From positions 1-53,081 of the forward strand of contig JAJDYI010000087.1 of NCBI GenBank assembly GCA_022825235.1: a stretch of 53,081 nucleotides of DNA, in the 5' to 3' direction. The stretch comes from Alphaproteobacteria bacterium. Lineage in GTDB: Bacteria; Pseudomonadota; Alphaproteobacteria; TMED109. Under the pieces are notes generated by a model that did no database searches, was not told where the DNA came from, and worked only from the letters and a program-made list of their open reading frames with translations. Below, piece by piece: positions 37,461-42,045 of the stretch. How positions within the stretch are numbered: position 1 is the first letter of the stretch; each line of letters starts with the position of its first letter. A program made the translations under genes and the position numbers.

Positions 37461-37553
37461 CATCTTTCCCTGTTGGGTGCTGTCATCTGCCGGTCCGCGG
37501 ATATGCGGGTCCGGAAGGTTGTTCTTGCGCGCCGTCGGATCGGAACCGTTCGC

Positions 37554-38024
37554 ATGCAGCTCGGAAGCTTTCTTGCTCCTTCAGCCATCCTCCCGAGACT
37601 GACCGTCAACAGCACGCGGCAGCTGCTGCATACGCTTGCCAAGGTCGGGGCTCGCGAGACCGGGCTCGGGGAACGGGCGATCTTCCAGGCTTTGATGGCG
37701 CGCGAGCAACGCGGCTCGACCGGGTTTGGCCACGGGGTTGCGTTGCCGCACGCGCGTTTCAAGGGACTCGCCCGGGTCACCGGCGTCTTCGCGCGGCTGA
37801 TGCCGCCTATCGATTTCGACGCACCCGACGGCCGTCCGGTTGAATTGGTTTTCTGCCTGCTGAGTCCGGAACGAGACAACGCCGTGCACTTGGCCGCCCT
37901 GGCAACGATCTCGCGGCGACTCGGCCGAGCGAGTTTGCGCCGGGTACTGCGGGGCGCTAACGAGGCGGATGCGATGCACGCGCTGCTGACGGATCTGGAG
38001 CACACCCAGCCCGAGGCCGCATGA
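37554..38024 (+). CDS. ptsN: Nitrogen-regulatory PTS enzyme IIA (PtsN)
   Basis: Phosphocarrier end point of the nitrogen PTS, which regulates other proteins rather than importing sugar. The 156-residue protein begins at MQLGSFLAPSAIL, matching the usual PtsN start, and holds the phospho-accepting histidine in GHGVALPHARF. The fold continues with DFDAPDGRPVELVFCLLSPE and HLAALATISRRL. The ATG at 37554 is chosen over an in-frame start at 37473 because the extra 27 residues are basic and unlike the family. The stop overlaps hprK as ATGA. Confidence 0.94.
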   Translation: MQLGSFLAPSAILPRLTVNSTRQLLHTLAKVGARETGLGERAIFQALMAREQRGSTGFGHGVALPHARFKGLARVTGVFARLMPPIDFDAPDGRPVELVFCLLSPERDNAVHLAALATISRRLGRASLRRVLRGANEADAMHALLTDLEHTQPEAA

Positions 38025-38458
38025 CCCGAACCGGTACGTGCGTCGCGGTTGACGGCCGTGGCGTGCTGCTGCAGGGACCGAGCGGCGCCGGCAAGTCCGA
38101 TTTGGCCCTGCGCCTCATCGACGGCGGTGCCGAACTCGTGGCGGACGATCGTGTCGTGCTCGAATCGCGCGCAGGCGTGCTCTCGGCCAGCGCACCGGCT
38201 GCGCTCCGGGGGCTGCTCGAGGTCAGGGGACTCGGCATCTTCCGCCTTCCGTACCGGACCAGCGTGGCAGTGACGCTGATAGCCCAGCTGGGCGGCGAGC
38301 GCGACGACCGTCTTCCGCCGCCGAACACGACCACGATCCTCGGGCACGAGCTGGCCGCCATCGAGCTCTCGGGGGAGCGCGCGTCGGCCGCCGCGCGGGT
38401 GCGCCTGGCGCTCGGTAAGGCGGTATCGGTGGCCGGGGTGATGGGAGATGCAGCGTGA
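38021..38458 (+). CDS. hprK: HPr kinase/phosphorylase, short alphaproteobacterial form
   Basis: Phosphorylates and dephosphorylates HPr on a regulatory serine. At 145 residues it is only the catalytic core: the N-terminal domain of the Gram-positive enzyme is absent, as is usual in alphaproteobacteria. Walker A is QGPSGAGKSDLALRL near residues 18-32, followed by LVADDRV and RGLLEVRGLGI, the HPrK signature region. Its target serine is visible in the HPr encoded two genes later. It is coupled on both sides by ATGA and GTGA overlaps. The rapZ gene often found next to it is missing. Confidence 0.93.
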   Translation: MTRTGTCVAVDGRGVLLQGPSGAGKSDLALRLIDGGAELVADDRVVLESRAGVLSASAPAALRGLLEVRGLGIFRLPYRTSVAVTLIAQLGGERDDRLPPPNTTTILGHELAAIELSGERASAAARVRLALGKAVSVAGVMGDAA

Positions 38459-38925
38459 GCGAACCGGCCGGTCGTTCCGACGAAAAGTTCGATGGCGTCG
38501 GCATCGTGGTGGTCACGCACGGCCGGTTCGGCGCCGAGCTTGTTGCCGCAACAGAACACGCGGTCGGCGCCATGCCGGCTGTCCGCGTGCTCGAGGTCGG
38601 CCCGACCGACGACATCGAGGAGCGCCGGCGCGCCATCCGTCAGGCGGGCGACGCGGTGAACTCCGGGCGCGGCGTCATCTACATCGTTGACGTGTTTGGC
38701 AGCACCCCAGCCAACCTCACCAGATCTGTCGTGCAAGACACGAAACCGGAAGGGCAGGCCATGATGCTGGCCAACCCCAATCTGGCGGTCATGTACAAGC
38801 TCGCCGAAGCCCGCGGACGCGACATGCCGCTCTCCGACCTGCTGGATACCGCGCGCTCGGCTGGCCGCAAGAACATGCTGGAACTCGGGGAAGCGCTGCG
38901 GGGCGGCCGGGACGCCACCGAGTGA
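38455..38925 (+). CDS. Mannose-type PTS EIIA domain protein
   Basis: A 156-residue cytoplasmic phosphocarrier of the EIIA-Man fold. The acceptor histidine lies in VVTHGRFGAELVAA, and IVDVFGSTPANLT is the family's second signature. LANPNLAVMYKLAE matches the region after it. No IIB, IIC or IID partner genes are adjacent, so it is more likely a regulatory end point than part of a sugar transporter, as proposed for alphaproteobacterial relatives. It starts at GTG 38455 overlapping the hprK stop, and its own stop overlaps the HPr start. Confidence 0.92.
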   Translation: MSEPAGRSDEKFDGVGIVVVTHGRFGAELVAATEHAVGAMPAVRVLEVGPTDDIEERRRAIRQAGDAVNSGRGVIYIVDVFGSTPANLTRSVVQDTKPEGQAMMLANPNLAVMYKLAEARGRDMPLSDLLDTARSAGRKNMLELGEALRGGRDATE

Positions 38926-39209
38926 ACCCAGCGCAACTGACTGCTTCCCGGACGGCCCAGATCCGCAACCTCCGTGGTCTGCATGCGCGGGCGGCGGCAC
39001 GGTTCGTGAAATGCGCCAGCCAGTTTCAGGCCGACGTCATCGTGCGCAAGGATGAGCTGTTCGCGGACGGCAAGTCCATTTTGGGCCTGATGGCGCTGTC
39101 CGCGTCACTCGGGACCACCGTCTCCATTGAAGCGAGCGGTCCGGAAGCTGCGTCAGCCATCGCCGCCCTCGGTCAGCTTGTGGACGAAGGATTCGGCGAA
39201 GAACACTGA
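38922..39209 (+). CDS. ptsH: Phosphocarrier protein HPr
   Basis: A 95-residue HPr that passes phosphate from enzyme I to the EIIA proteins. The active histidine is in RGLHARAAARFV and the HprK target serine in DGKSILGLMALSAS. Enzyme I (ptsP), which would phosphorylate it, is not in the window. In alphaproteobacteria this gene may be called ptsH or ptsO/npr. It starts at GTG 38922, overlapping the upstream stop, and ends the run: the next genes are on the opposite strand and look foreign. Confidence 0.94.
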   Translation: MNPAQLTASRTAQIRNLRGLHARAAARFVKCASQFQADVIVRKDELFADGKSILGLMALSASLGTTVSIEASGPEAASAIAALGQLVDEGFGEEH

Positions 39210-39351: not shown

Positions 39352-40038
39352 CTACGGCCGAGAAAGCGTGTCTTCAGGCTGGTTCAAGGGATAAATGAGG
39401 TTCAGCGCCGCAAGAATCGTGATGCTGAATTCCGTCAGTTCTCCCCGCCTCGGGGCGTCGGTTGCCATGTTCACCAAGCCCTCCACGGCCACGATCACGA
39501 GCAGGTAACCGAGATACTGGTACCGCTTCGGGATGGGTATCCCCCAAGCGTCGAGAAACCGGCGCGCGAATGCAGAGGCATGGTACAGGGGCTTAATCAA
39601 CCCCAGGTAGAGCACGAACAGCAGCAAGATTCCCTTCGAGAAAATGTCCTTGTTGATCGACATCCCGCCAACGGCAAGGTTGTGGAGATTGATCTCCTGC
39701 TGCTTGTTGTGGCTCAGGAAAAACTCCGAACTGTCGATGGCAAGCAGCCTTTGCCCCCAGGAGATCTCTTCACCCGCGCCAAAGATCGCCAGCACCGAGA
39801 GCACGGCAAGGACCGACCGCTGCCTCCAGTTGAGAAGATGCCGGTATTTCCAGAGCCGGCCCGCCATGAGCACGGCGACCGAGCCCAGCGCGAAAACCGT
39901 CAACCACTCCAGCAGCCCGTCCTCGGCCGTATAGACGCTGTGGAAGTAATCGTGATTCACAAGACTGAGAAACACGCCCAGGCCGAACAGGATCGCAGCA
40001 TTGACCAGGACAAACGTTTCGGTTCTATCAACGGGCAT
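39352..40038 (-). CDS. Uncharacterised polytopic membrane protein with a GEEISWGQR motif
   Basis: A 228-residue integral membrane protein with about five hydrophobic segments. Striking features are EDGLLEWLT near the first loop, AGEEISWGQRLL at the end of the third segment, and QQEINLHNL in the next loop; the paired glutamates plus Trp, Gln, Arg and His look like a conserved polar site at the membrane. I have seen this motif set in uncharacterised bacterial proteins but know no function. The ATG at 40038 has GGAGG about 10 bases upstream and overlaps the preceding gene by 11 bases. Last gene of a three-gene minus-strand cassette of lower GC than its surroundings. Confidence 0.82.
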   Translation of the reverse strand: MPVDRTETFVLVNAAILFGLGVFLSLVNHDYFHSVYTAEDGLLEWLTVFALGSVAVLMAGRLWKYRHLLNWRQRSVLAVLSVLAIFGAGEEISWGQRLLAIDSSEFFLSHNKQQEINLHNLAVGGMSINKDIFSKGILLLFVLYLGLIKPLYHASAFARRFLDAWGIPIPKRYQYLGYLLVIVAVEGLVNMATDAPRRGELTEFSITILAALNLIYPLNQPEDTLSRP

Positions 40039-40612
40039 CGCGAAAGCGCCTCCAGACACGACTGCCGACATGCCACGAGGAATAGACGAAGACGATCGGA
40101 TCGATCAGATAATCCACGATGTTATCGCTCTCGCCGGCATCATGACCATGCAACAGCAGCGACAGGGTCGCCCAGACGGCAAGCAACCGGGTGGCCGCGA
40201 ATCCGACACACAACACGGCCAGGAACAGCAATCCCAAGGCTGCGTATGGATGGTACCCGACCGCGTAGAGGTCAATGGGTCCAACGCCCAATGCCGAGGG
40301 AAACATCACGAGACCCAGCCAGAAAATGCACGTGCGCAGTCCACCGAAGTCTTCCTCCGTCACCCTCTCGGGCAAGATGCCCCTTGCAGCAAGGCCTCCT
40401 AGAATCAATAACATGCCCACGCTGGGTTCCCCCTGAACCGCAGCAACGAACCCGATGAGAGGAACATGATCAAATTGAATTGAGAACGCCGCGGCCACTA
40501 TGGCCGCAGCGATCCCTAACCTGATGGACCAGCTGTCCGTGTAGCGGGCGGAACAGTAGACACCCAGCAAAACCAGTACGAATGCCCAACCGAAAGAACC
40601 GTATGCGGTCAT
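40028..40612 (-). CDS. Uncharacterised polytopic membrane protein
   Basis: A 194-residue protein with about six hydrophobic segments and a final amphipathic stretch (DNIVDYLIDPIVFVYSSW) before a basic C terminus, suggesting a cytoplasmic tail. I recognise no family. Charged or polar residues inside or near the membrane include DHVP after segment 2 and GPIDLY after segment 4. The start codon overlaps the stop of the sialidase-like gene as ATGA, and its end overlaps the next gene by 11 bases, so all three are probably made together. The open frame extends further upstream, inside the preceding gene, but that part is not hydrophobic and is ignored. Confidence 0.75.
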   Translation of the reverse strand: MTAYGSFGWAFVLVLLGVYCSARYTDSWSIRLGIAAAIVAAAFSIQFDHVPLIGFVAAVQGEPSVGMLLILGGLAARGILPERVTEEDFGGLRTCIFWLGLVMFPSALGVGPIDLYAVGYHPYAALGLLFLAVLCVGFAATRLLAVWATLSLLLHGHDAGESDNIVDYLIDPIVFVYSSWHVGSRVWRRFRDAR

Positions 40613-41823
40613 GGTTCCGTAGCGGGACCACGCCGTATTCGTGCAAGCCAGGTTTCGTTGAACGTAACGTGCTTTATGTATTGACGGTTGTACGTATAGG
40701 CAACATGGATACGCCCGCTTGAGTCCCGCAAGATCGACGGGTAGGAAAAGTGCTGCCCGGAGCCGGTTTCGGAACGCTCGATATCGTAGATCCGTGCCCA
40801 TTCGCCCGGATCCCGCTCGGATATGGCCAGCGACAAGTTGTTTCGCCCAGTCTCTGAATGGTTGTAAACCATGAGGGTTTCACTGCTGGCCAGCCGAATG
40901 GCGTCAATTGCGCTATCGGGATTCGGCAGATTCGAGTGTCGTGGAGGAGAAAAATTCAATCCTGCATCGTTCGTGCTGACGTAGTGAACACGCTTAACTG
41001 CCTCACCTGCATACCGCATGAAGACATGCGCGGTCTCCGCATCCACGACAACCAGCGCAGGCTGAATGTGACTTCGCCCTCGAGTCAGCCGCTGCTTTCC
41101 CCGGACCGATCCGTCAGGATTCAGGTGCAATAGCTCAGCGAACTTGCCCAGCAACTCGTGGTAGACCGGGAGCGCAATGCCCCCGTCCAGCATCTGGATG
41201 GGCCGGCCCCGTACCAGCGTACTTACATTGAACGCCGGGCTGCTGACCAGCCGCCTTGCCCGGCCAAATGTTGCCCCGCCGTCGCGGGAGACCATTGCAT
41301 TGATCGCACTGCCGGACCATCCACCGAATGAAACACTGACGAAAAAGACCCATACCTGTCCTGCGGCATCACGGAAACCGACGGGATTCCCCAACTTCTT
41401 GATGTATCTGCCTAATTCTTCAGAGAGCTTTGTTCTATTCATGATTTCGCGGGCGGCGCCCCACTGCTGCTCGTTCGGTGGCAAACGGGCCGTATAGATC
41501 CCCACGTCATGGGCCCCCTCTCTGCTCCCCCCGTACCAGAATGCCCGGGTTCCTCCATCGGCCAGTTCGATCAGGGTCGCGCTGTGCACCATCGCACGCC
41601 CTCCGGGATCGATGGCACGCTCCTCCCAGACGGGCTCAGCCTCCGAGTCTCCGATCATGTCAGCTGTGTGGGACACGGTCCCGACTGCATCGGCCCGGTA
41701 GCCCGGCGAAGCGATGTACGAAGTCACGGATTCAAGCGCCGGCAGCAAGGCAAAGCCCAGGAGCACACCGATGCCGGCGATGGTGAGCAAGCGTCGATTT
41801 GTTCTTGAAATAAACCGTACCAT
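40609..41823 (-). CDS. Membrane-anchored sialidase-fold (BNR repeat) protein
   Basis: A 404-residue protein with one N-terminal hydrophobic segment (LLTIAGIGVLLGFALLPAL) and a beta-propeller-like body. Asp-box repeats appear as SRDGGATF and STNDAGLNF, with GGWSGSAINAM before the first. Late repeats include FSYPSILRDSSGRIHVAYTY. These match the exo-alpha-sialidase-like BNR family, but the catalytic arginine triad cannot be assigned by eye and the substrate may not be sialic acid. The ATG at 41823 lies in an AT-rich patch. It leads a cassette with two membrane proteins, suggesting a surface-glycan role. Lower GC than neighbours suggests acquisition. Confidence 0.75.
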   Translation of the reverse strand: MVRFISRTNRRLLTIAGIGVLLGFALLPALESVTSYIASPGYRADAVGTVSHTADMIGDSEAEPVWEERAIDPGGRAMVHSATLIELADGGTRAFWYGGSREGAHDVGIYTARLPPNEQQWGAAREIMNRTKLSEELGRYIKKLGNPVGFRDAAGQVWVFFVSVSFGGWSGSAINAMVSRDGGATFGRARRLVSSPAFNVSTLVRGRPIQMLDGGIALPVYHELLGKFAELLHLNPDGSVRGKQRLTRGRSHIQPALVVVDAETAHVFMRYAGEAVKRVHYVSTNDAGLNFSPPRHSNLPNPDSAIDAIRLASSETLMVYNHSETGRNNLSLAISERDPGEWARIYDIERSETGSGQHFSYPSILRDSSGRIHVAYTYNRQYIKHVTFNETWLARIRRGPATEP

Positions 41824-41857
41824 AAACAACTACTTCACAGATCTTGTGTTTCCGAAA

Positions 41858-41886
41858 AGAGTACAAACGACTTGGGAACCCTTCAA
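41858..41886 (-). promoter_or_regulatory. Possible promoter of the accessory cassette
   Basis: On the minus strand TTGAAG (41886-41881) and TACTCT (41863-41858) are 17 bases apart within an AT-rich patch, 35 bases upstream of the ATG at 41823. Both hexamers are imperfect. Confidence 0.3.
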
Positions 41887-42017
41887 TAAACCCTATTCTA
41901 CAATTGGACCGGCACCCCCCGTCCGATATTCTGTGACTGCCTGTCGCCGCGTGTAAAACGCAGGCAAACACACGGGCCTGCAGCGCCCCCGAGCCAGAAC
42001 CATGACACCCGGGCCGA

Positions 42018-42023
42018 TATACT
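42018..42023 (+). promoter_or_regulatory. Putative -10 element for ahcY
   Basis: TATACT lies 22 bases upstream of the ahcY start. No matching -35 is visible (CAGAAC at 17 bases). I looked for an S-adenosylhomocysteine riboswitch in the upstream 100 bases and did not recognise one. Confidence 0.3.
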
Positions 42024-42045
42024 GCGCCGCTCTCGTGAGGGGATG

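Follow-up and report, generated by a model that had tools for sequence, protein, structure and literature searches.

What do three overlapping minus-strand genes, one for a sialidase-fold protein and two for membrane proteins, do between ptsH and ahcY, and has such a system been described before? We studied the cassette within the window, the whole 53,081-nucleotide stretch of alphaproteobacterial DNA that was analysed. By direct reading, it consists of three minus-strand ORFs at 39352-41823, arranged with head-to-tail overlaps. An earlier note made from the sequence had proposed a tightly coupled unit, and the ORFs and both overlaps are confirmed:

40609-41823, minus strand: P0001, the BNR gene, KdoH1-like, 404 aa
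40028-40612, minus strand: P0002, the middle gene, KdoH2-like, 194 aa
39352-40038, minus strand: P0003, the third gene, 228 aa
40609-40612, minus strand: ATGA overlap of the KdoH1 stop and the KdoH2 start, 4 bp, with the same -4 overlap in most homologous loci
41824-42042, minus strand: intergenic region from the cassette to ahcY, its AT-rich part (41824-41960) having 47% GC

The 4-bp ATGA overlap is consistent with translational coupling of the first two genes, and the second and third genes overlap by 11 bp (40028-40038). That the genes are real beyond chance is supported by the match of P0001 to the Pfam family BNR_2 (E 3e-72) and by the conserved gene order and overlaps. As the earlier note had observed, the cassette is lower in GC than its surroundings (58.2% vs 66.8% for the window). 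Its further proposal of a dedicated AT-rich promoter patch held for the composition and less so for the promoter: the AT-rich stretch probably contains the cassette promoter, but a promoter scan of the patch gave one match against the 1.1 expected from shuffled sequence, which is not above chance.

The claim that the cassette interrupts a conserved gene neighbourhood is borne out. It is flanked by ptsH (HPr) and ahcY (SAHase) and holds the same position in all seven congeneric loci examined, each of which has all three genes; among the genomes sampled, P0001 occurs in all seven that belong to the genus and in 0 of 18 from other genera of the family. Elsewhere, HPr and SAHase lie near each other without the insert: among 29 other genomes of the class, six have an HPr-SAHase gap of 114-286 bp lacking the cassette and a seventh has a distance of 818 bp, and one (L204) retains the order HPr-SAHase-TsaE with the insert absent. 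Since ahcY directly follows HPr in the relatives, the cassette was probably inserted at this junction before the genus radiated. On the ptsH side, a PTS/HPr-kinase type cluster (37473-39209; PTS IIA-like, HPrK-like, EIIA-man and HPr) ends right beside the cassette. An ORF of 630 aa that lies upstream of this BNR gene in four loci (L028-L030, L037) was considered as a fourth gene and rejected, as it is antisense to SAHase.

P0001 has one N-terminal membrane helix (about 16-34, the single hydrophobic segment in the hydropathy profile) followed by a six-bladed BNR_2 domain (62-399), and its AlphaFold model (pLDDT 89) places a helix at 6-34 ahead of the propeller, a domain that is expected to be located in the periplasm. 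In structure comparison, the model retrieves the sialidase fold (Foldseek E 1e-17) and superimposes on the Micromonospora sialidase with a VIA-align Z of 37.6 (2.5 A over 321 residues). The six-bladed propeller is thus common to P0001 and the GH33 sialidases (Micromonospora viridifaciens 1eur/1w8o, Clostridium perfringens NanI; Z about 37). Catalysis in GH33 enzymes depends on an arginine triad, an aspartate and a tyrosine-glutamate pair, and the check for these residues gave a divided answer. A profile alignment to solved sialidases identifies R270 as the second triad arginine, R327 as the third and Y361 as the catalytic tyrosine, whereas the sialidase glutamate, 16 residues before the second arginine, is replaced by Q254, which is invariant in the core family. 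H80 and D106, also invariant there, would by spacing correspond to the first triad arginine and the acid/base aspartate, the PDB profile alignments not reaching H80; H80 appears to stand for the first arginine. With R270, R327 and Y361 kept and the glutamate exchanged, P0001 is therefore a sialidase fold with an altered active site, and it differs from the GH33 enzymes also in its membrane anchor and its strict partner.

That partner is the product of the middle gene. P0002 has seven hydrophobic segments in the family-averaged hydropathy and the conserved motifs YP.ALG..D.Y..GY and ES.NLWDYL.DP, and has no match to a Pfam or NCBIfam family. Sequence conservation in its family is modest; the gene neighbourhood is strict. 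Scanning the collection with P0001 gave 78 loci, 32 closer relatives (L026-L057) and 46 more distant BNR_2 loci. A P0002 relative lies directly downstream of the BNR gene in all 32 of the former, mostly with a 4-base stop-start overlap, and adjoins it in only 3 of the 46 latter. The 32 loci cover at least five phyla (Alpha-, Beta- and Gammaproteobacteria, Acidobacteria, Planctomycetota, Verrucomicrobia and Auribacterota). The reverse search agrees: a BNR gene stands beside 16 of 18 matches of the P0002 profile in Pseudomonadota, the two exceptions being a 1,736-base piece and a weak match, and of the 16 gammaproteobacterial matches of the BNR profile, 14 have the partner gene next door. From adjacency and overlap, we infer that the two genes would be co-transcribed.

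A described enzyme has this layout: KdoH1/KdoH2, a two-protein Kdo hydrolase that trims the lipopolysaccharide anchor of Gram-negative bacteria by taking the outer Kdo off Kdo2-lipid A, for which both proteins are required. In the work of Zhao and Raetz from 2010, KdoH1 reportedly is related to sialidases and has one membrane segment, and KdoH2 reportedly is a polytopic inner-membrane protein with seven. The window pair resembles the KdoH1/KdoH2 enzymes of Francisella novicida and Helicobacter pylori in that the gene for a BNR protein with a single membrane segment at its N-terminus adjoins the gene for a polytopic membrane protein. In F. novicida, kdoH1 is FTN_0495 and kdoH2 is FTN_0494 (PMC4688374); the former is annotated as a BNR/Asp-box repeat protein, the latter as a hypothetical membrane protein, and FTN_0493 is mtn (PMC2928790); slt (FTN_0496, 1,977 bp) adjoins FTN_0495 on the opposite strand (PMC6587636). 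The H. pylori proteins work jointly (PMC12342981, PMC3245313), and without them sensitivity to polymyxin is 37- to 1147-fold higher (PMC5371381). The H. pylori counterparts of the pair are HP0579 and HP0580. A genome of the gammaproteobacterial sample with 30% GC in the region (G842, locus L149) carries, in order, slt on the opposite strand (1,977 bp), a small Frag1-like gene, a BNR gene, its partner, a second slt-like gene and mtn, and from synteny and GC only this would be a Francisella-type kdoH locus. P0001 is 30% identical over 258 aa to the BNR protein in the KdoH1 position of that locus (E 4e-33), and the similarity of the P0002 family to the protein in the KdoH2 position is weak (hhalign probability 92, E 6e-7). 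Besides this distance, the window differs from the described systems in its extra overlapping gene and its ptsH/ahcY site. In L149 (4026-10591), an SLT-domain gene lies on either side of the KdoH locus.

The surroundings of the pair in other genomes point toward the lipopolysaccharide. In three of them (G243, G396, G377), it lies inside an LPS-core cluster with glycosyltransferases, an O-antigen ligase family protein and a lipid A acyltransferase, and in the G396 cluster a heptosyltransferase I (WaaC) scores above the curated cut-off. A gene for an ArnT-like glycosyltransferase is directly upstream of the pair in G375, G425, G513, G617 and G747, and in G617 and G747 a lipid A acyltransferase gene is nearby on the other strand. 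The loci with an ArnT-like (GT39) gene directly upstream of a KdoH-like pair include L124-L126, L159, L160 and L044, a placement suggesting that lipid A glycosylation and Kdo trimming may be coupled. In eight loci of several lineages (L032, L033, L034, L036, L040, L129, L131, L132), the pair adjoins a gene for an LTA-synthase-like membrane sulfatase/phosphotransferase, from which the same lipid may receive a phospho-group. We considered this protein as a constant third member and rejected it, since it is lineage-specific and absent from the window. The window cassette itself lies outside any LPS cluster. The genome to which it belongs encodes, at the level of genes, a WaaA/KdtA family member and KdsA, both over the cut-off.

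Taken as a whole, homology, fold, topology, coupling, distribution and LPS context make it highly probable that P0001 and P0002 form a two-component Kdo hydrolase of the KdoH1/KdoH2 type. In such an enzyme, the KdoH2-like protein would hold the KdoH1-like sialidase-fold domain at the outer face of the inner membrane. WaaA would add two Kdo sugars, and the Kdo2-lipid A would be flipped before the pair acts; the two proteins together would then cleave the outer Kdo in the periplasm. The result would be a core anchor with a single Kdo, fewer charges and a changed substrate for the later core and lipid A enzymes. The suspicion that the locus encodes a membrane-anchored device for cleaving envelope glycans, with a sialidase fold and a polytopic partner, is in this respect well supported. 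The accompanying claim that no described system matches did not survive, as architecture, gene order, Francisella-type homology and LPS context all fit KdoH1/KdoH2.

The third gene is a different matter. The two motifs that had been noticed in one of the membrane proteins, GEEISWGQR and NLHN, are both in P0003, and the family alignment has invariant residues at E39, E44, E90, E91, S93, W94, Q96, N111, E115, N117, H119, N120 and E200. No Pfam or NCBIfam family matches P0003, its model (pLDDT 82) has no Foldseek match in the PDB below E 1, and a literature text search for the motif found no paper. Its VIA-align Z to rhodopsins and GPCRs, at most 6.5, is no higher than unrelated helical bundles would be expected to give. 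P0003 shares its invariant acidic, glutamine, asparagine and histidine residues with an unannotated EExSWGQ...NxQxExNLHN membrane family that 15 of the 240 genomes from the class contain. It stands apart from the rest of that family, in a KdoH-linked clade of its own that is marked by an NKxxFSK motif. Relatives are mostly standalone, and the members outside this clade lie beside unrelated genes. Those members that are linked to KdoH come from the window's genus and from three Verrucomicrobiota MAGs and group as a single clade (support 100/100), a result biased by the gathering of these sequences via KdoH loci; among the sequences examined in the P0003 searches (240 and 398 genomes), the clade has no unlinked member.

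Could the three proteins be an obligate machine in this lineage, with P0003 a subunit needed for activity? This would be compatible with a Kdo-hydrolase pair rather than exclusive of it, and the overlapping genes, their constant company in the genus and the single KdoH-linked clade spanning Alphaproteobacteria and Verrucomicrobiota speak in its favour. Yet the third gene is missing from 23 of the 32 core KdoH-like loci, the published KdoH is a two-protein enzyme and P0003 relatives mostly occur alone, so that we regard a strict requirement as unlikely. The idea of a three-gene unit is borne out in part: the first two genes are almost always together, and the third accompanies them only in the window's genus and the three Verrucomicrobiota MAGs. 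For P0003, the likeliest role, itself a guess, is that of a membrane enzyme specific to the lineage or of an accessory subunit, with the same Kdo/lipid A substrate. Somewhat more specifically, and only tentatively, it could be a dedicated third component or co-acting enzyme in Alphaproteobacteria and Verrucomicrobiota, carrying out an undescribed modification of Kdo-lipid A or redirecting the released Kdo. As the first two genes match KdoH1/KdoH2 and P0003 belongs to a KdoH-linked clade, the core pair is already known, and the cassette with three genes amounts to a modest new variation on it.

The substrate of the pair deserves a separate argument. A two-component membrane glycosidase of the same superfamily could act on another acidic sugar of the envelope, such as Ko, a sialic-acid-like nonulosonate or another core Kdo. 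Besides the departures from the sialidase residues, such a reading could draw on the finding that D106 and R327, conserved in the core family, are both replaced in the Francisella-type protein at the KdoH1 position, and on contexts that vary by lineage among ArnT-like, LTA-synthase-like sulfatase and LPS-core genes; given Q254 and these two replacements, the catalytic chemistry is therefore not settled. We nevertheless hold another sugar to be quite improbable, as the conservation of the partner, the topology and the LPS-core context fit KdoH, waaA and kdsA are present in the window genome and homologues occupy the kdoH position of Francisella. If P0001 were an ordinary sialidase, secreted to act on sialic acids of a host or the environment and unrelated to its neighbours, the BNR_2 domain and the fold would be explained. 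This reading is hardly credible given the LPS-core context and the occurrence in MAGs of many phyla, and we rejected it on three counts: the membrane anchor, a membrane partner that is strictly kept, and the replacement of the glutamate by Q254.

If the pair is a Kdo hydrolase, its distribution matters. Kdo trimming has been described for H. pylori and Francisella, and in the former affects later lipid A modification and resistance to antimicrobial peptides. MAGs in which the pair can be recognised belong to Acidobacteriota, Planctomycetota, Verrucomicrobiota and Auribacterota and to several lineages of Pseudomonadota, and lipopolysaccharide with a single Kdo made by trimming may therefore be far more widespread than described. 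Misleading annotation is likely: no NCBIfam model catches KdoH1 or KdoH2, and since the partner and third families are without a Pfam or NCBIfam model, such genes can be given no better label than sialidase-like or hypothetical, a gap that the profiles from this analysis would close. The P0003 gene is a candidate for a further step beyond Kdo trimming. The BNR family also extends beyond the pair. Many partnerless BNR_2 proteins with the same H/W/GGxRE/D signature were seen at L061-L103 (Xanthomonas, Chitinophaga, Anaerolineae, Bryobacter), with a KdoH2 neighbour only at L087, and one partnerless relative (L151, 6043-7658) is located beside a gene that, judged by eye, resembles a KdsC-type sugar phosphatase, hinting that this branch, too, may have a Kdo or nonulosonate substrate.
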